Assembly: GCF_014640315.1 (NCBI RefSeq)
Contig: NZ_BMGS01000001.1
Coordinates: 1 to 64,000, forward strand
Length of the DNA stretch: 64,000 bases
From: Hymenobacter glacieicola
GTDB taxonomy: Bacteria > Bacteroidota > Bacteroidia > Cytophagales > Hymenobacteraceae
Reading direction: 5' to 3'
The notes under the pieces: model-generated
Database searches by the model: none
Told to the model about the DNA's origin: nothing
What the model saw: the letters and a program-made list of their open reading frames with translations, nothing else
Translations under genes and position numbers: made by a program
In this document: positions 46,922 to 56,794 of the stretch, piece by piece
Numbering within the stretch: the first letter of the stretch is position 1
How the letters are laid out: every line of letters begins with the position of its first letter

Positions 46922-47767
46922 ATGCAACTCGGCAAAATCACGCTACAGAATCCGGTGTGCCTGGCGGCTGCCTCTTGGCAGCTGGATGGCACGGGCTACG
47001 AGCGGCTAGGGGCCATTTTCACCCGCACCGTCACGATGGAGCCGAAGCCCGGCCTCTACGAGGAAGGTATCTGGCAAGTCGCCGACCAGACCCTGCTCAA
47101 CGCCACTCACATGCGCACCGAAAGCGCCGAGATTCTGGTGCAGGAACACCTGCCCACCCTGCGGCGCCACGGGGTGCCGGTGTTTGTGAGCATCACGGCT
47201 CCCGGTATTCCGGGTTTTCGCAAAATTGCGCGCTTTCTGGCCCGCGAAGCGGCTGAGCTGATAGCTGGGGTAGAAGTGTACATGGCCCAGCCCGACACGG
47301 AGAAAGGCGAGGAACTGAACGCCAAGTTTGTGCGCGAAGCCACCCAGGCCGTACGCAACGAACTGGGGCCCGAGGCCGCCGTTATTGTGAAGCTGCCGCC
47401 CTGGCCGGAGCACATCAGGGGCTTAGCCCTGGGTGCCCAGGAAGGCGGCGCTACCGCCCTGGCGGCTACCAACCTGCTCAAAGCCCTGCACCTACCCGAC
47501 GATGCCACGGCCGCGCCTATAGCCGGTGGCCTCTCCGGCGAGGCGCTCCGGCCCGTGGCCCTGCGCTGCGTGTGGGAGCTGGCGCACGACGCGCGCATTA
47601 CGCTGCCCATCTTCGGGACGGGCGGGGTGTTCACGGCCAGCCATGTGACGGACTACTTGCGCTGCGGGGCCAGTGCCGTGCAAATTGCCAGTGGCGAGTG
47701 GCTGGAACCCGGCATTTCAGCCCGGCTGGCCGCCGAGTGCGGCCACTTGGTGCCAGCGAGTTTGTAA
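46922..47767 (+). CDS. Dihydroorotate-dehydrogenase-like protein lacking the catalytic cysteine
   Basis: A 281-residue TIM-barrel flavoprotein of class 1 dihydroorotate dehydrogenase type. It opens with LGKITLQNPVCLAAASW, has the FMN-contact VKLPPW, AATNLLKA, GGLSGEALRPVALRCVWELA and FGTGGVFTASHVTDYLRCGA. The active loop, normally N-(I/V)-S-(C/S)-P-N, reads Y120-M-A-Q123-P-D125, so the catalytic Cys/Ser and both asparagines are changed. Since pyrF and pyrE follow directly, a role in pyrimidine synthesis is likely, but standard activity is doubtful. The true PyrD may be elsewhere. Confidence 0.65.
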   Translation: MQLGKITLQNPVCLAAASWQLDGTGYERLGAIFTRTVTMEPKPGLYEEGIWQVADQTLLNATHMRTESAEILVQEHLPTLRRHGVPVFVSITAPGIPGFRKIARFLAREAAELIAGVEVYMAQPDTEKGEELNAKFVREATQAVRNELGPEAAVIVKLPPWPEHIRGLALGAQEGGATALAATNLLKALHLPDDATAAPIAGGLSGEALRPVALRCVWELAHDARITLPIFGTGGVFTASHVTDYLRCGASAVQIASGEWLEPGISARLAAECGHLVPASL

Positions 47768-47878: not shown

Positions 47879-48664
47879 ATGCAAAAGCTTATTTCCCGCA
47901 CCCAAGCTGCCAACTCCCTGCTTTGCGTCGGGCTTGACCCGGTAGGGGAGGACGCGCAGGTGGCGCGCCGCCTGGCCGAGGTCATCGACCAGACCAGCGA
48001 GTACGCCGCCGCTTTCAAACCCAACCTGGCGTTTTTCCTGAGTCGGGAAGACGGGGTGAAGCTGCTGCGGGACACCGTGCAGCGCATTCCCGAAAGCATT
48101 CCGGTGATTCTGGACGGTAAGTTCGGCGACATTGCCAACACCGCCGACCACTACGCCCGTTTCGCCTACGACGTTATCGGGGCCGACGGCGTGACGGTGA
48201 ATCCCTACATGGGCGACGATGCCATTGTGCCTTTCGCCCGGCCCGGCAAGCTGGTGTTCGTACTGGCCAAAACCAGCAACAAACCGGCGCATTCCCTGCA
48301 AGATGTGGCCCTCACCCGCGGCGGCACCCTCTCAGACTGCGCTGCCCGCGTGACCCGGAAGCTTGATGAGCAGCACGGCGGCATCGGGCTGGTCGTAGGG
48401 GCCACTAACCCCGAAGCCGTAGCGCGCATCCGCAGCCTTACGCCGGAGCAGTGGTTCCTGGTGCCCGGCGTCGGCGCCCAGGGCGGCGACCTGCAGGCCA
48501 CGTTGAAAGCCGGCCTGCGGCCCGACGGCTCCGGCCTTCTCATTAATACCTCGCGCGCCCTGTGGCAAGCAACCGACGCCGGCGCCGCCGCGCGGGAGCT
48601 AGTCAAGCAGATCAACCAATTCCGCCCGGTCGTAGAGACGCAACATATTGCGTCTCCTCGTTGA
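47879..48664 (+). CDS. pyrF: Orotidine 5'-phosphate decarboxylase, type 2
   Basis: A 261-residue enzyme that turns OMP into UMP, the last step of pyrimidine synthesis. ATG 47879 gives the family start QKLISRTQAANSLLCVGLDP; an upstream GTG is rejected. The active site shows Asp79, Lys81 and Asp84 in LDGKFGDIANTAD, and VPGVGAQGGD and SGLLINTSRA bind phosphate. The last residues (VVETQHIASPR) and the stop codon come from a palindromic element that begins at 48632, so the native end has been replaced. Confidence 0.9.
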   Translation: MQKLISRTQAANSLLCVGLDPVGEDAQVARRLAEVIDQTSEYAAAFKPNLAFFLSREDGVKLLRDTVQRIPESIPVILDGKFGDIANTADHYARFAYDVIGADGVTVNPYMGDDAIVPFARPGKLVFVLAKTSNKPAHSLQDVALTRGGTLSDCAARVTRKLDEQHGGIGLVVGATNPEAVARIRSLTPEQWFLVPGVGAQGGDLQATLKAGLRPDGSGLLINTSRALWQATDAGAAARELVKQINQFRPVVETQHIASPR

Positions 48665-48783: not shown

Positions 48784-49398
48784 TTGACTTCCCCCCAACC
48801 CACCTTCACCCCCGAAACCCTGGAGCAGCAATTGTTGCAGGAGGACGCGCTGCTGCGCGGGCACTTCCGCCTGTCCTCCGGCCTGCACTCCGACACCTAC
48901 GTGCAATGCGCCCGGTTCCTGTGCCGCCCCGACCTGGCGGCCCCGGCTGCGGCGGAGTTGGCCCGACTAATTCAGGAGGCCGGATTACAGCCCGACGTAG
49001 TGGTAGGCCCGGCCATGGGCGGCGTGGTGATTGGCTACGAGCTGGCCCGGCAGCTGGGTGTGCCCGGCATCTTCACGGAGCGCGACGATGCGGGGCAGAT
49101 GACCCTGCGGCGGGGCTTTACGGTGGAGCCGGGCCAGAAAATTGTTATTGCCGAAGACGTCGTGACTACTGGCAAGAGCACCAAGGAAGTAGCGCGGGTG
49201 TTGGAGGGGCTGGGCGCAAAAGTTTTGGCCGTGGCCAGTTTAATTGACCGCACGGGTGCCCAAGCTGAGCTAAGTTTTCCGAACTTTGCCCTGCTGCCGG
49301 TTACGGCGGCCACCTACGCACCCGATGATTGTCCGCTTTGCCGGTCAGGTATTCCGGTGGTGAAACCCGGCTCTCGGCCGGAAAAAGCGTTTTCTTAA
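48784..49398 (+). CDS. pyrE: Orotate phosphoribosyltransferase
   Basis: A 204-residue enzyme joining orotate to PRPP to form OMP. No ATG is available; TTG 48784 is the likely start. The PRPP-binding loop is KIVIAEDVVTTGKSTKE, with TERDDAGQMTLRRGF, VVGPAMGGVVIGYELAR and FRLSSGLHSDTYVQ as further family stretches. It acts between the dehydrogenase step and PyrF, whose gene is just upstream. Confidence 0.9.
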   Translation: MTSPQPTFTPETLEQQLLQEDALLRGHFRLSSGLHSDTYVQCARFLCRPDLAAPAAAELARLIQEAGLQPDVVVGPAMGGVVIGYELARQLGVPGIFTERDDAGQMTLRRGFTVEPGQKIVIAEDVVTTGKSTKEVARVLEGLGAKVLAVASLIDRTGAQAELSFPNFALLPVTAATYAPDDCPLCRSGIPVVKPGSRPEKAFS

Positions 49399-49523: not shown

Positions 49524-52500
49524 TTGGACGCTACCCAAAGAACCTTTCAGCTTCTGCTCAAGCCCGGCCAACATGATGGTGAGGGCCACCGTGTAGCCGA
49601 AGCTGCCCACCGCCACCTCGGCCTGACCACGGGCCGGGTGCAAAGCACCGCTCTCTACACGGTGCGCTACCCCGTAACGGGCGAGCAACTGCGCGACTTC
49701 GCCACCCATTGCCTTCAGGATCCGGTACTGCACGACGTGGCCCTCGACGAGTTCCGCCACGGCGCCGACTACAAAAGCTACATCCTCGTCGCTAAGCTGC
49801 CCGGGGTCACCGACGACGAAGGCATTTCGGCGCAGAACGCCCTCGGCGACTTCCTGAACCAGCCGCTGGATACGCATACCCAGCACATCTTCAGCAAACG
49901 GCTCTACTTCCTGGAGCACGAGCTGCCCGAGAGTAGTCTGCGCCAGCTGGCCGAAGAGCTGCTCGGCAACAAAATGATTAACCGCTTCGAGGTCGGCCCC
50001 ATCGCCCAGATTCGCGACTACACGCCGCGGCCGGGCGGTGGGGCCGAATCCATTACGGACACCGTGCGCCTCGTTGGCCTCTCGGATGAAGAGCTGGTGA
50101 AGCTGTCGAAAGACAACCTCTACGCCCTGAACCTGGAGGAAATGCGCGCCGTGCGCGACCATTACACCAGCATGGCCGAGGAGCGCCGGGCCGCCGGCCT
50201 ACCCCCGGACCCCACCGACTGCGAGCTGGAAATCATTGCCCAGACCTGGTCGGAGCACTGCAAGCACAAGGAGTTCAGCGCCGTTATTAAGTATCGGGAT
50301 GCAGACACGGGCGAGGAGTTTGAAGTCGACTCCTTGTTTAAGACCTACATCAAAAACGCTACCGCCGAGGTAGACCGCCAGCTGCGCGCCAACGGCAACG
50401 ACTGGCTGATTAAGGTATTCAGCGACAATGCCGGGGCCGTGCGCATCAACCCCGAGTCGTTGTTCGTGTGGAAGGTGGAAACCCACAATTCGCCCTCGGC
50501 CATCGACCCCTACGGCGGCGCCATTACCGGCATCCTGGGCAACAACCGCGACCCGCTGGCGACTGGCATCGGGGGCGCGAAGCTGCTGTTCAATACCAAC
50601 GTGCTCTGCTTCGGCAACCCCGAGTTCAACGGCACCTTGCTGAGCAACCAGCTCCACCCACGCCGCATTTTTGAAGGAGTCCGCAAAGGCATTGAGGATG
50701 GCGGTAACAAGTCGGGCGTGCCGACAGTGAACGGGGCCATTGTGTTCGATGACCGGTACGCGGGTAAGCCGCTCGTGTACTGCGGCACCGGCGCCGTGAT
50801 GCCCATGCAGCTGGCCGGCCTCGACTCCTGGGAAAAGAACATTGACGCCCAGGACCGCATCATCATGGCCGGGGGCCGGGTGGGCAAGGACGGCATCCAC
50901 GGCGCTACCTTCTCCAGCATTGAGCTGGACGAAACTTCACCCGCCACGGCCGTGCAGATTGGCTCGCCCATCACCCAGAAGCTGGCCATGGACTTCCTGA
51001 TCCTGGCTACCCGCCGCGGCCTGATCAAGTGCAGCACCGATAACGGCGCGGGCGGCTTGTCGTCGAGCATCGGGGAGCTGGCTACTATCAGCGGCGGGGC
51101 CGTGGTGGAGCTGGAAAAAGTGCCGCTAAAGTACCCCGGTCTGCGCCCCTGGGAAATCTTCGTGTCGGAGTCGCAGGAGCGGTTTTCGCTGGCCGTGGAA
51201 CCGAGCAAGATGACCGAGTTAATGGCCCTGGGCCAGGAAATGGAAGTGGAGTTGACGGATATCGGCTACTTCACCTCCGATGGCAGCCTCGACGTGCGCT
51301 TCGACGGTGAGTCGGTGGCGCGCCTCGACATGGAATTCCTGCACAACGGCGTACCGCGCAAAGTGCTGGAAGCCGAGTGGCAGAAGCCTGCGGCCCAGGA
51401 GCCCAAGGTGGAGCTCCGTTGGGAAGGTAGAGACGCAATATTTTGCGTCTCCCCATTGAACGACTCACTTAAACACTATCAGCAGACGGAAGACGCAAAA
51501 TATTGCGTCTCTACAACGGACGTGCTGAGCCGCCTGCTGGGTAGCCTCAACATCTGCTCCCGCGAGTCGGTAATTCGGCAGTACGACCACGAGGTGAAGG
51601 GCCGCACCATCATCAAGCCGCTCATGGGCGCTACCGGGCAGGCCCCGCAGGATGCCGCCGTGGTGCGTTTCAACTTTGAGAGCTGGGAAGGGGTAGCCGT
51701 GAGCAATGGCATTCTGCCCCGCTTCGGCGACCTGGACGCCTATGATATGTCGGCTGGGGCGTTTGACGAGGCCGTGCGCCAGATTGTAGCGGTGGGGGGG
51801 AAGCTGCCCAACCTCAGCTACGGCGACGGCAACTTCTGGTCCGTGAACGACAACTTCTGCGTGCCCGACTCGGTGTACGACCCCGCTACCAACCCCGACG
51901 GCAAGCTCAAGCTGGCCAAGCTGGTGCGCATGTGCCAGGCCCTGCGCGATGCCACGGCGGCCTACTGCATCCCGCTCACCTCGGGCAAGGACTCGATGAA
52001 GAACGACTTCAAGGCCGACGGCGTGAAGATTTCCGTTCCACCGACGGTCTTGTACTCGATGACCGCCAAAATCGAAGACGTCCGCCGCACCATCACCTCC
52101 GACTTCAAGCAAGCCGACGACGTGGTGTACCTGCTGGGCGAAACCTACGACGAGCTGGGCGGCTCGGAGTTCTACCAGCTCTTCGGCGAGCTGGGCGCCA
52201 ACGTACCCAAGGTGCGGTTCGAAGAAGCCAAAGCCCTCTACACGCTGATGGGCCAGGCCAACGACCAGGGCCTCATCCAATCCTGCCACGACTTGTCGGA
52301 TGGCGGTTTGGCCGTGGCCCTGGCCGAAGCCACGTTTGGTCACGGCTTTGGGGCGGAGGTAGAGCTGCCGGAAGGCCTGCCAGTGCACGTGCAGCTGTTC
52401 TCGGAGTCACACTCCCGGTTCGTGGCTACGGTGGCGCCTGAGGATGTAGTGGCGTTTGAGCAGCACTTTGGCACTCGTGCTACCCGCCTCGGTTGGGTAA

Positions 52501-52637
52501 CGCAAAACGGTCAATTGCATGTGCGGCAGTCTGGCAAAACCATCATTTCGGCCAGCACCGCCGCCCTGCGTTACGAGTGGACCAACGGCCCGGTGAACCG
52601 CATCATCGGCTTCGGCCAGCACGAAACCGTACAATAA
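49524..52637 (+). CDS. purL: Phosphoribosylformylglycinamidine synthase, synthetase part
   Basis: A 1037-residue enzyme making FGAM from FGAR with ATP and ammonia. The start is TTG 49524; an in-frame stop lies six codons upstream and there is no ATG. Residues 1-170 are a PurS-like duplicated region, followed by the synthetase core (TWSEHCKHKEFSAVI, ETHNSPSAIDPYGGA, GGNKSGVPTVNGAIVF, LTSGKDSMKND). Glutamine amidotransferase is separate (PurQ). Between KVELRWE and VLSRLLGSLNICSRES an insert of about 30 residues (GRDAIFCVSPLND... DAKYCVSTT) is encoded by a palindromic element. Confidence 0.9.
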   Translation: MDATQRTFQLLLKPGQHDGEGHRVAEAAHRHLGLTTGRVQSTALYTVRYPVTGEQLRDFATHCLQDPVLHDVALDEFRHGADYKSYILVAKLPGVTDDEGISAQNALGDFLNQPLDTHTQHIFSKRLYFLEHELPESSLRQLAEELLGNKMINRFEVGPIAQIRDYTPRPGGGAESITDTVRLVGLSDEELVKLSKDNLYALNLEEMRAVRDHYTSMAEERRAAGLPPDPTDCELEIIAQTWSEHCKHKEFSAVIKYRDADTGEEFEVDSLFKTYIKNATAEVDRQLRANGNDWLIKVFSDNAGAVRINPESLFVWKVETHNSPSAIDPYGGAITGILGNNRDPLATGIGGAKLLFNTNVLCFGNPEFNGTLLSNQLHPRRIFEGVRKGIEDGGNKSGVPTVNGAIVFDDRYAGKPLVYCGTGAVMPMQLAGLDSWEKNIDAQDRIIMAGGRVGKDGIHGATFSSIELDETSPATAVQIGSPITQKLAMDFLILATRRGLIKCSTDNGAGGLSSSIGELATISGGAVVELEKVPLKYPGLRPWEIFVSESQERFSLAVEPSKMTELMALGQEMEVELTDIGYFTSDGSLDVRFDGESVARLDMEFLHNGVPRKVLEAEWQKPAAQEPKVELRWEGRDAIFCVSPLNDSLKHYQQTEDAKYCVSTTDVLSRLLGSLNICSRESVIRQYDHEVKGRTIIKPLMGATGQAPQDAAVVRFNFESWEGVAVSNGILPRFGDLDAYDMSAGAFDEAVRQIVAVGGKLPNLSYGDGNFWSVNDNFCVPDSVYDPATNPDGKLKLAKLVRMCQALRDATAAYCIPLTSGKDSMKNDFKADGVKISVPPTVLYSMTAKIEDVRRTITSDFKQADDVVYLLGETYDELGGSEFYQLFGELGANVPKVRFEEAKALYTLMGQANDQGLIQSCHDLSDGGLAVALAEATFGHGFGAEVELPEGLPVHVQLFSESHSRFVATVAPEDVVAFEQHFGTRATRLGWVTQNGQLHVRQSGKTIISASTAALRYEWTNGPVNRIIGFGQHETVQ
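51427..51514. repeat. Palindromic element (GAGACGCAA family), copy B, in frame inside purL
   Basis: 88 bases from GTAGAGACGCAA to TTGCGTCTCTAC, with a palindrome at each end and CCATTGAACGACTC near the left one, like CTCGTTGAACGGCC in copy A. Read through as codons without a stop, it adds about 30 residues to PurL. Confidence 0.85.
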
Positions 52638-53791: not shown

Positions 53792-54727
53792 ATGAACACC
53801 CTCAACCACTTCGATACCCCTCAGCTCGAACTCCTGCACCGCGGCAAAGTTCGGGACTCGTACCGCGCGCCTTCCGGTGAGCGGCTCATCGTAGTAACTG
53901 ACCGGCTGTCGGCCTTCGACTCGGTGCTGGAAACGCCGGTGGCTCACAAAGGCGCGGTGCTGAACGGGCTGGCGGCTTTCTGGTTCGAGAAAACCCAGCA
54001 CATCATTCCGAACCACGTGATTTCGCTGCTCGACCCGAACGTGACGCTGGCCAAGGAAGCCGAGCCGATTCGGGTGGAAATGGTGGTGCGCCACTACCTC
54101 ACGGGCTCGATGTGGCGCGGCTACCAGCAAGGCCAGCGCACCTTCTCGGGCGTAACCGTGCCGGATGGCCTGCGCAAGCACCAGCAGTTCCCCGCGCCCA
54201 TCGTAACGCCAACTACCAAGGAGGAGTCGGACCGCGAAATTACACCGGAGAACCTAGTGGCAGAAGGGTGGGTGACGGCGGAGCTCTACGAGCAGATGCG
54301 GGTGAAGTCCCTGGAGCTGTTCAACTTTGCCTCCAAGTGGATGGCCGAGCGCGGCATTATCCTGGTGGATACCAAGTATGAGTTTGGTTTGCTGGATGGG
54401 GAACTGATCCTGATTGACGAAATCCACACGCCCGACTCGTCGCGGTTCTGGAGCGCCGAGGACTACGCCAAGAACCCCGAGACCGTGGAGCAAATGGACA
54501 AGGAGTACGTGCGCCAGTGGCTGATTGCCAACAAGCAGGACGGCCAATATCCCCGCGCCCTTACCCCAGAAGTTTCCGCCGAAGCCAGCCGCCGCTACCT
54601 CGATATCTACGAGCGAATCACGGGCAGCCCGCTGCCCACCAGCAACGAAACCAACTCCGGCGACGACGTACAAGTCCGCCTCGTGGGGAACTTGGTGCGC
54701 GCCGGCATCATGAAAGACGCCATCTAA
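53792..54727 (+). CDS. purC: SAICAR synthase
   Basis: A 311-residue ATP-dependent enzyme joining aspartate to CAIR. It opens with LLHRGKVRDSYRAPSGERLI and has TDRLSAFDSVLETPV, RHYLTGSMWRGYQQGQR, VDTKYEFGLLDGELILIDEI and HTPDSSRFW. The length is the bacterial/yeast long type (about 300). It follows purQ by 48 bases and its stop codon touches the next ATG. Confidence 0.95.
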   Translation: MNTLNHFDTPQLELLHRGKVRDSYRAPSGERLIVVTDRLSAFDSVLETPVAHKGAVLNGLAAFWFEKTQHIIPNHVISLLDPNVTLAKEAEPIRVEMVVRHYLTGSMWRGYQQGQRTFSGVTVPDGLRKHQQFPAPIVTPTTKEESDREITPENLVAEGWVTAELYEQMRVKSLELFNFASKWMAERGIILVDTKYEFGLLDGELILIDEIHTPDSSRFWSAEDYAKNPETVEQMDKEYVRQWLIANKQDGQYPRALTPEVSAEASRRYLDIYERITGSPLPTSNETNSGDDVQVRLVGNLVRAGIMKDAI

Positions 54728-55111
54728 ATGGAGCCCTTGCAGGCAAAAAATCTGGTAACCAACTACATCGAAGCGTACAACCGCTTCGATGTGGCCGGTA
54801 TGCTGGCGCCGCTGCACGACGAGGTAACATTTCGGAACATAGCCAGCGGAGAAATCAGCCTGACCACCCACGGTAAGGCGGAGTTCCAAGCTCAGGCCGA
54901 ACAAGCCACCCGATATTTCTCCCAACGGGAGCAGCGCGTCACGAATTGGCAAGTAGCCGACAGCCGCGTGGAAGCCCTTCTGGACTACATAGCCGTTGCC
55001 GCTATGGACTTTCCCAATGGTCTGAAAGCTGGCGACAAACTACAACTGCAGGGCAAGTCCGTTTTTCAGTTCACTGATGGACTGATAGTTTCCATCGACG
55101 ATATCAGCTAG
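54728..55111 (+). CDS. NTF2/SnoaL-like protein
   Basis: A 127-residue protein of the nuclear-transport-factor-2 fold: TNYIEAYNRFDVAGMLAPLH near the start, DEVTFRNIASGE, and LQGKSVFQFTDGLIVSIDD at the end. The fold is used for steroid-isomerase-like and many other activities, so function is open. Its ATG begins on the base after the purC stop codon, which argues for coupled translation within the purine operon. Confidence 0.7.
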   Translation: MEPLQAKNLVTNYIEAYNRFDVAGMLAPLHDEVTFRNIASGEISLTTHGKAEFQAQAEQATRYFSQREQRVTNWQVADSRVEALLDYIAVAAMDFPNGLKAGDKLQLQGKSVFQFTDGLIVSIDDIS

Positions 55112-55120
55112 GCCTGTACG

Positions 55121-55498
55121 ATGGAAAAATTGTTGAAAGATTATGCGCTAAACGACGGGGAGATTATCTCGCTGAAGATAAATGCGGCCTATACTTTCAA
55201 CAGTGAGCCTGTGCTGCGCCAAGCTTCTGTGGAGCTTCTAATTCGCAAAAGAGCACGCAATGCATGGATGCCTTGCGTGCTGCAAATTGAGTTGGATGAA
55301 ATTCTGAGTTTGCGCCTTAATGAAGATTTCGCTTCCCCTCGTTACTCGGATATCGTCTTCAAAAGAATTGAGGATGACCGGTGGTATCTATCCTTAGACC
55401 CATATGGTAACTCCGGCGAGCCTCACGAAGAAGATAACTTGGTAATAGTGGCCAAGTCAGTGAAAATAGATGAAGGAGTAACACAAGACAGATTTTAA
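55121..55498 (+). CDS. Protein of unknown function, AT-richer than neighbours
   Basis: A 125-residue protein I do not recognise: KDYALNDGEIISLKINAAYT, VLQIELDEILSLRLNEDF, FKRIEDDRWYLSLDPYGNS. The pattern of short strands resembles immunity-type or single-domain accessory proteins. Its codons are clearly richer in A+T than those of the purine genes around it, so it may be a later arrival. It starts 9 bases after the NTF2-like gene and ends 3 bases before purD. Confidence 0.45.
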   Translation: MEKLLKDYALNDGEIISLKINAAYTFNSEPVLRQASVELLIRKRARNAWMPCVLQIELDEILSLRLNEDFASPRYSDIVFKRIEDDRWYLSLDPYGNSGEPHEEDNLVIVAKSVKIDEGVTQDRF

Positions 55499-55501
55499 GC
55501 A

Positions 55502-56794
55502 TTGACGACCTTGGCAACTCCTAAAACCATAGTACTCCTCGGCGGCGGGGCCCGTGAACACGCTATGGCGTGGAAGCTGACCCGCGACGGGGCCACCGTG
55601 CACGTGCTGCCCGGCAACGCCGGCATTCCGAACAGCCACCCCGAAATCAGCGCTACCGACTTTCCAGCCATCCAGAGCTTCTGCGAAGCCAACGGCGTGA
55701 AGCTGATTGTGGTGGGTCCCGAAGCTCCGTTAGCGGCGGGCGTGACGGATTACTTCACTGGTTCCGACATCCGGGTGTTTGGTCCCAGCCGGGCCGGCGC
55801 CACGCTGGAAAGCTCCAAGGTGTGGTCGAAGGACTTTATGCGGCGGCATGGGGTAGCAACCGCTATGTCGTGGCAGTACCGCAGCGATAAGCTGGACGAG
55901 GCCCGTGCCAAAGCCACGGAGTTGGATGGGCAGGTAGTAGTGAAGTACGACGGCCTGGCGGCTGGCAAAGGCGTGTATGTGTGCTCGTCTATTGATGAAG
56001 CGCAAGCTGCGCTAGACGATTTGCAGCAGCAGCACACCGGCTGGTTTAGCTTCCTGCTGGAAGAAAAGCTAACTGGCCCCGAAATCAGCATCATTGGCGT
56101 AACGGACGGTAACCGGGTGCGGCTGCTGGCTCCTTCTCAGGACCACAAGCAGCTGCTGGCCGGCGACCAGGGCCCCAATACTGGAGGTATGGGCGCCTAC
56201 TGCCCCGTCCCGTTCTGCGACGACAACGTGCTAGCAGCTATCCGCACTAGCATCGTGGACCCCACGCTAAGTGGCCTGCAGAACGAGCAATTCGATTTCA
56301 ACGGCTTCCTCTACTTTGGCATCATGCTCACGCCTCAGGGCCCGAAGCTGCTGGAATACAACGTCCGTCTCGGCGACCCGGAAGCGGAAGTGTTGTTGCC
56401 CGCGCTGGAGAGTAGCCTGTTGGAGTTGATAGAGGCTACCCTGAACGGCACATTGCAGCAAACAGTAGTGCGGCAGCGCCGCGGCTGCTACGTAGGGGTA
56501 GTGCTAGCCTCGGGTGGCTACCCCGCCGCGCAATTTCCTACCGGCTTCCCTATCACTGGCCTGGACCAGCTACACCCCAGCATCCTGGCGTTTCATGGAG
56601 CCACCAAGCGGAACGCTGAAGGTGAGCTAGTAACCAGTGGCGGCCGCGTGATGGTGCTGGTCGGCCACGGCGAGGAGCTGGAGGACGCCGTAGCGCATGT
56701 GTACCGGGAAGCTGAAAAAGTTACATTCCAGGATGTGTACATCCGTACCGATATCGGCCAGCGGCCGGAACCCACTCTTGCAAGCAACTGGTAA
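55502..56794 (+). CDS. purD: Phosphoribosylamine-glycine ligase
   Basis: A 430-residue ATP-grasp enzyme making GAR. The start is TTG 55502, ahead of the N-domain IVLLGGGAREHAMAWKL. ATP-grasp motifs: VVKYDGLAAGKGVYV, LAPSQDHKQLLAGDQGPNTG, and FLYFGIMLTPQGPKLLEYNV, with RLGDPEAEVLLP at the C-terminal end of the grasp. Its end overlaps the start of purN by 17 bases. Confidence 0.95.
   Translation: MTTLATPKTIVLLGGGAREHAMAWKLTRDGATVHVLPGNAGIPNSHPEISATDFPAIQSFCEANGVKLIVVGPEAPLAAGVTDYFTGSDIRVFGPSRAGATLESSKVWSKDFMRRHGVATAMSWQYRSDKLDEARAKATELDGQVVVKYDGLAAGKGVYVCSSIDEAQAALDDLQQQHTGWFSFLLEEKLTGPEISIIGVTDGNRVRLLAPSQDHKQLLAGDQGPNTGGMGAYCPVPFCDDNVLAAIRTSIVDPTLSGLQNEQFDFNGFLYFGIMLTPQGPKLLEYNVRLGDPEAEVLLPALESSLLELIEATLNGTLQQTVVRQRRGCYVGVVLASGGYPAAQFPTGFPITGLDQLHPSILAFHGATKRNAEGELVTSGGRVMVLVGHGEELEDAVAHVYREAEKVTFQDVYIRTDIGQRPEPTLASNW

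Follow-up and report, generated by a model that had tools for sequence, protein, structure and literature searches.

The pyrD-like gene and its neighborhood

The window (the whole 64,000-nucleotide stretch of Hymenobacter glacieicola DNA analyzed here) carries a pyrD-like gene at positions 46,922–47,767 of the forward strand. Its 281-aa product is an FMN-barrel protein of the Pfam family DHO_dh (E = 3e-27) that is derived from class 1B dihydroorotate dehydrogenase (DHODH) and from which the loop base is absent. The reading frame begins with an ATG at 46,922 and ends with a stop codon at 47,765–47,767, and the start methionine is invariant across the 57 family rows that we aligned (the window and 56 other loci). 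A frameshift or a mis-called reading frame was ruled out because the frame is open in all 57 rows.

Three genes follow on the same strand: the constant downstream neighbor pyrF, encoding orotidine-5'-phosphate decarboxylase (47,879–48,664; TIGR02127), then pyrE, encoding orotate phosphoribosyltransferase (48,784–49,398; TIGR01367), and purL (49,524–52,637; 1,037 aa), assigned from NCBIfam and synteny. This order was found downstream of the pyrD-like gene at every one of the 57 loci, in line with the original prediction that the gene leads a pyr-pur cluster. Measured to the codon matching the window's pyrF ATG at 47,879, the distance from the pyrD-like stop to the pyrF start ranges from −13 to 178 nt; at 17 loci the two genes overlap by 13 nt. 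The pyrF, pyrE, and purL genes were also retained in all 24 Hymenobacter genomes without the pyrD-like gene, in which no homolog was found within 1.5 kb on either side of pyrF (best tblastn E = 0.02). In one of these 24 genomes (G005), pyrF is split in two frames.

Further along the cluster, the length of the window PurL falls between the small and large types, and a weak PurS match lies near its N-terminal part (residues 83–157, E = 0.026), suggesting that it is possibly a PurS-PurL fusion. Two small unnamed open reading frames (127 and 125 aa; 54,728–55,498) run in the same direction as the genes on either side, purC (53,792–54,727) and a purD-like frame that we named by eye (55,502–56,794).

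Family, fold, and descent

The highest-scoring NCBIfam model was that of class 1B (NF005574), at 134.6 bits against a cut-off of 269, and the class 1B model TIGR01037 gave 102.7 bits against a cut-off of 270. The class 2, PreA, and PRK07565 models all scored lower than class 1B. The best solved relative by sequence was Lactococcus lactis DHODB (1ep3/5ue9; 9.3e-18), which was also the nearest fold of the AF2 model by both Foldseek and VIA-align (5ue9: VIA Z 20.6, rmsd 4.1, 235 residues aligned, 20% identity). The AF2 models were middling (pLDDT 65.1 and 69.9, with loop residues 124–130 below 50), the VIA values coming from the one at 69.9, and these structural comparisons served only for naming the nearest fold. 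Viral contigs were also searched for class 1B rows that might deepen the fold alignment, and none was found there.

In a quick tree using 27 of the 57 rows, the family formed one clade (SH-aLRT support 100) whose stem is 5.88 changes per column long, and it grouped with 25 class 1B rows, apart from two class 2 rows. These trees carry SH-aLRT support only and hold two class 2 rows (a third, L172, being left out) and no PreA rows. We read the long stem as a burst of change that was followed by constraint.

The gene was present in 77 of 101 Hymenobacter genomes, at 71–100% identity, and in one sister genus of the same family it was present in 8 of 8 genomes, a count that covers the listed genomes only, as four genomes without a match fall outside that listing. 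Among the four remaining genera of the family, no listed genome carries it. All 44 named records with a close relative belong to Hymenobacter, and across 241 genomes of the order, full-length matches came only from Hymenobacter (13), with five other genomes giving short matches to residues 151–257. The next-best match in the phylum was at 5.9e-36. Among the best 26 non-family matches of the 109 matching genomes in the phylum, 25 gave a canonical class 1B PyrD; the 26th locus (L149) has the same SCPN motif but yielded no row under our motif filter.

When presence and absence were placed on a PyrF+PyrE tree of 81 loci, only two changes were needed, which disfavors patchy horizontal spread. We read these changes as probable losses, in 21 and 3 genomes, although the count itself cannot separate gain from loss. 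Because the gene is absent from these two clades, it is dispensable. Where present, it is strongly constrained: 112 of 281 positions are invariant in the 57 rows, and the median pairwise dN/dS is 0.165, compared to 0.196 for the adjacent pyrF. Both values are simple pairwise Nei-Gojobori estimates from pairs with 0.1 < dS < 1.5 (1,426 pairs for the pyrD-like gene and 1,407 for pyrF, of 1,596 each).

A catalytic loop without a fixed base

The loop reads Y120-M-A-Q123-P-D125 (47,279–47,296, forward strand) in place of the class 1B N-x-S-C-P-N. The sequence and the alignments thus confirm the reported replacement of N-I-S-C-P-N by Y-M-A-Q-P-D. When aligned with L. lactis DHODB and with 25 class 1B proteins drawn from Bacteroidota, Y120 takes the position of the loop Asn, Q123 falls on the catalytic Cys, and D125 falls on the second loop Asn. 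These three residues (N, C, and N) do not vary among the 25 class 1B proteins, a count that is partly circular because the rows were chosen by a motif already requiring S-C/S/M-P-N/H.

Within the pyrD-like family, the catalytic position is occupied by Q in 32 rows, S in 10, A in 5, C in 5, T in 4, and V in 1. The catalytic Cys or Ser had been described as missing, and this holds for the window protein, which has Gln, but not for the 15 orthologs with Cys or Ser. By contrast, position 120 is Tyr in 57 of 57 rows. Position 125 is also mixed (D 40, T 5, H 3, S 3, E 2, P 2, and N 2). When the loop was excluded from tree building, the resulting family tree called for no fewer than 8 changes at the catalytic position and for none at Y120. 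Ranked by entropy, the column of the catalytic position comes 21st in variability among 281, and eight of the columns that vary more are the last eight residues of the protein (274–281).

We also used the alignment to look for a catalytic residue elsewhere in the loop, as had been suggested, and found none: positions 122–125 all vary, and the only fixed polar position among those checked is Y120. Because the catalytic position drifts while Y120 is fixed, a base that is no longer needed explains the pattern better than a new base does. The idea of a new mechanism is only partly upheld: the base is indeed lost, but no new residue is fixed in its place, and the genome has a canonical class 2 PyrD and no PyrK match.

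Outside the loop, C13 and the stretches 92–104 and 159–162 (TAPG-PGFRKIAR and PPWP) vary little or not at all within the family; of the positions compared, C13, T92, and P159 are unlike class 1B. These stretches could possibly form a new ligand or partner surface.

Flavin and pyrimidine contacts

In excerpts of a study of Trypanosoma cruzi DHODH, orotate is held by Lys43, Asn67, and Asn194, with Asn67 reading N1-H/C2=O and Asn194 reading N3-H/C4=O of orotate (PMC4427443). Excerpts of a second study have FMN held by Lys44, Ser45, Asn128, Lys165, Asn195, three Gly, and Thr273, and its Table 2 gives the T. brucei contacts as Ser45 to N3/O4, Asn128 to N3/O2, Lys165 to N1/O2, and Asn195 to O2 (PMC5881531). 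In these same excerpts, Lys43/44 contacts both FMN N5 and the orotate carboxylate (PMC4427443, PMC5881531). The matching of residue numbers across the papers is our reading of the alignments.

Most of these positions are kept. N60 (47,099–47,101), which aligns with class 1 Asn67/72, and N184 (47,471–47,473), which aligns with Asn194/195, are invariant in all 57 rows, and all 25 class 1B rows likewise have N where N60 aligns. K157 (47,390–47,392), the counterpart of T. brucei Lys165 at the FMN ring, is also invariant (57/57), as are T36, which aligns with Ser45 of T. brucei, and Q254. Position 35, aligned with Lys43/44, is R in 42 rows and K in 15, and position 257 is S or T, so the hydroxyl is kept. 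Both FMN-phosphate motifs are present on the forward strand: GGLSG at residues 202–206 (47,525–47,539), with G202, G203, S205, and G206 invariant and L204 found in 54 of 57 rows, and GTGG at residues 232–235 (47,615–47,626), invariant in all 57.

Other positions differ from class 1B. Asn has become Ser90, Gly has become Asn, Asp, or His63, and Asn has become Thr66 (Ile in one row); in the loop, the counterpart of Asn128 is Tyr, and the catalytic Cys and the second loop Asn are lost. The alignment therefore supports the original prediction that the base and part of the substrate and FMN contacts have changed while the barrel and its FMN-phosphate motifs are kept. By homology, the FMN seat and the pair of ring-reading Asn residues would persist in the family, with the acid-base loop and one flavin contact rebuilt. 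A different substrate had been raised as one of two possible implications, but because the ring-reading N60 and N184 are invariant in 57 of 57 rows, a wholly different substrate is not required.

Other PyrD, PyrK, and PyrB genes in Hymenobacter

A check of the genome for a second pyrD, proposed at the outset, turned one up on another contig (contig 5). It is a canonical class 2 PyrD of 344 aa whose loop, NVSSPN, has the Ser base. No match to PF10418, the Fe-S family of the PyrK partner, was found in the H. glacieicola genome, compared to 6 of 14 control genomes with a match. Class 2-strength matches (about 290–311 bits; L001 and L171 alone were inspected at the sequence level) occurred in nearly all of 120 Hymenobacter genomes. 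At full strength, class 2 pyrD was missing only in H. aerophilus and in G793, a genome that is 81% complete, and frameshifts break it up in G065 and G066. At least 13 genomes had two full-length class 2-strength matches (G004, G008, G027, G029, and G030, and further G070, G075, G089, G096, G100, G169, G191, and G792).

In H. aerophilus DSM 13606, class 2 pyrD is a remnant (L176, on contig G016:C15, at 1,425–1,626) comprising codons 1–68 in two frames with no run of N, and the remaining codons were not found. The remnant adjoins the same neighbor as the intact copy (matched by eye), which we take to be a Mg-chelatase-like gene. The pyrD-like frame is intact in this strain (296 aa), and no other PF01180 match reaches E ≤ 1e-15 in the draft of about 60 contigs. 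Its dN/dS is 0.13–0.15 in comparisons with three relatives and 0.29 with the nearest one, and some relaxation is possible because pyrF is more constrained in the same pairs (0.06–0.11).

The pyrD-like protein could thus be a working DHODH in H. aerophilus. Yet pyrB was not found in this genome, where the search gave only a 38-bit match, and because pyrB is missing, it is likelier that the gene is kept for something else than that it serves as the DHODH there or is being slowly lost.

Absence of pyrB is not confined to this strain. No match to the aspartate carbamoyltransferase model TIGR00670 at E ≤ 1e-30 was found in 20 of the 120 Hymenobacter genomes, including H. aerophilus and the single-contig genomes G032 and G158, which could represent recurrent loss or an unrecognized replacement. 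Class 2-strength pyrD is nearly always retained despite these absences. We considered co-loss of pyrB and the pyrD-like gene and saw no link, as pyrB is missing in 13 of 77 genomes with the pyrD-like gene and in 3 of 24 without it.

Interpretation and alternatives

We tentatively read the protein as an FMN protein descended from class 1B PyrD that would bind an orotate-like pyrimidine, do without the loop base, and not be the main DHODH of the cell, an explanation that we regard as quite possible but short of probable. The canonical class 2 PyrD of contig 5 most likely carries out the standard reaction, so the pyrD-like protein need not be the cell's DHODH, and its being the only PyrD was rejected for the H. 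glacieicola genome.

To account for this state, we suggest that the starting point was a class 1B-type PyrD encoded in the usual pyrD-pyrF-pyrE order. Once class 2 PyrD took over the work, this protein would have lost both its PyrK partner and its role as main DHODH, although the order of these events is our reconstruction. Its fixation in a new role would then date to the common ancestor of Hymenobacter and the sister genus. Most likely, FMN is still bound at the barrel mouth and a pyrimidine, either orotate or a near relative, is stacked on it via N60, N184, and Lys/Arg35, with Lys/Arg35 serving the ligand carboxylate. Tyr120 would replace the flavin-touching Asn. Because the loop is without a fixed acid-base residue, this protein would not be expected to oxidize dihydroorotate with Cys/Ser assistance at the usual rate. 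Instead, its most plausible activity would be FMN-dependent redox chemistry on a pyrimidine or a similar compound, in a reaction that needs no loop base and that would lie within or beside the orotate-to-UMP step. A redox role is favored over a pure sensor because the residues aligned with flavin-ring contacts are kept. Still, running counter to this explanation, the pyrD-like gene sits in an operon that uses orotate, and some members of the family might be ordinary DHODHs because they have Cys (5/57) or Ser (10/57) at the base position. The gene's dispensability in two clades also counts against it.

With more reserve, we can envisage a lineage-specific FMN enzyme of class 1B origin within the pyr-pur operon, marked by the invariant Tyr and the missing loop base, whose substrate would be some pyrimidine besides dihydroorotate, or orotate converted in a new direction. 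To our knowledge, such a pyrimidine redox step is in no known pathway.

A different role, which we consider unlikely while taking it seriously, is that of a pseudoenzyme: a non-catalytic FMN- or orotate-binding partner or sensor that would bind or tune PyrF and PyrE. A degenerate catalytic loop in an otherwise strongly constrained protein speaks for this role, and the constant neighborhood and the 13-nt overlap with pyrF at 17 of 57 loci are consistent with it. Catalytically dead paralogs that activate their partners exist elsewhere, as described in excerpts of one report (PMC3663545). However, the residues aligned with flavin-ring contacts (K157, T36, N184, and K/R35) are kept, and all 24 genomes without the pyrD-like gene keep pyrF, pyrE, and purL.

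We find it improbable that the protein is a slow DHODH or oxidase, or one in which solvent or Tyr120 stands in for Cys, acting as a second PyrD beside class 2. The gene does stand ahead of pyrF-pyrE, the ring-reading Asn pair and Lys/Arg35 are kept, 15 of 57 rows carry Cys or Ser where the base would lie, and the class 2 remnant in H. aerophilus also speaks for this explanation. Weighing against it, the base position is among the most variable (at least 8 changes), the loop Asn is Tyr in 57 of 57 rows, the H. glacieicola genome has no PF10418 match, and class 2-strength matches occur in nearly all Hymenobacter genomes searched. Cys and Lys mutants of a class 1A enzyme are both reported to have lost activity (PMC10395836). 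Moreover, because H. aerophilus has no recognizable pyrB, dihydroorotate may not be made there. Finally, a decaying relic without function is hardly credible: although the catalytic residue is not conserved and the gene is absent from two clades, its median dN/dS of 0.165 is close to that of pyrF, 112 of 281 positions are invariant, and identity is 71–100% across the 77 of 101 genomes that carry it.

These results matter in part because automated annotation likely labels the gene "dihydroorotate dehydrogenase" and thereby treats it as a standard step. In this family, strong purifying selection holds the DHODH scaffold while the catalytic residue drifts freely; here is a naturally occurring flavoenzyme that has lost its acid-base residue and, by homology, would retain FMN and ring recognition. 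What the DHODH fold is capable of without Cys or Ser can be tested directly on it, as can whether Hymenobacter has an unrecognized pyrimidine reaction or regulator. If the more reserved reading of a new pyrimidine redox step is true, that step would be kept even in H. aerophilus, which is without class 2 PyrD and a detectable aspartate carbamoyltransferase.

Comparison with known systems

Class 1B PyrD is the closest known system. L. lactis DHODB is the best match of the pyrD-like protein in both sequence and fold, and the two share the FMN-phosphate motifs, K157, N60, and N184. Class 1B pyrD also commonly stands ahead of pyrF-pyrE, as the pyrD-like gene does. However, compared to class 1B, the pyrD-like protein is without the loop Cys, has Tyr for one loop Asn and Asp for the other, has S90 for Asn and Arg for Lys, reaches only half the curated NF005574 cut-off, and is encoded in a genome without a PF10418 (PyrK) match.

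Class 2 DHODH belongs to the same superfamily and supplies the other PyrD of the genome, but the pyrD-like protein scores at best 54.8 bits against a cut-off of 267, has Gln rather than the Ser base, and, at 281 aa, is without the N-terminal extension. Dihydropyrimidine dehydrogenase/PreA has the same barrel (1h7x_B: VIA Z 17.8, rmsd 3.6, 225 residues aligned), yet here the score is 57.3 bits against a cut-off of 335. Dihydropyrimidine dehydrogenase also carries Fe-S parts, for which 281 aa are too few.

DHODH-fold proteins without catalytic residues are already a known kind. The "dihydroorotate dehydrogenase-like protein" PRK07565/cd04739 (NF005741) has the DHODH fold and is also without them, but membership in this group was ruled out, as the pyrD-like protein scored 15.1 bits against a cut-off of 303. 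A precedent for DHODH misannotation comes from dematiaceous molds, whose DHODH-like proteins, found beside a class 2 DHODH, are dihydrouracil oxidases according to excerpts of the study describing them (PMC10395836); unlike the pyrD-like protein, these keep the catalytic Cys. Among the titles and opening abstract lines of the literature on DHODH in Hymenobacter, DHODH-like proteins in Bacteroidetes, DHODH pseudoenzymes, and pyrD paralogs, nothing concerned the present family. It is separate from PRK07565, derived from class 1B, bound to an operon, and drifting at the catalytic position.
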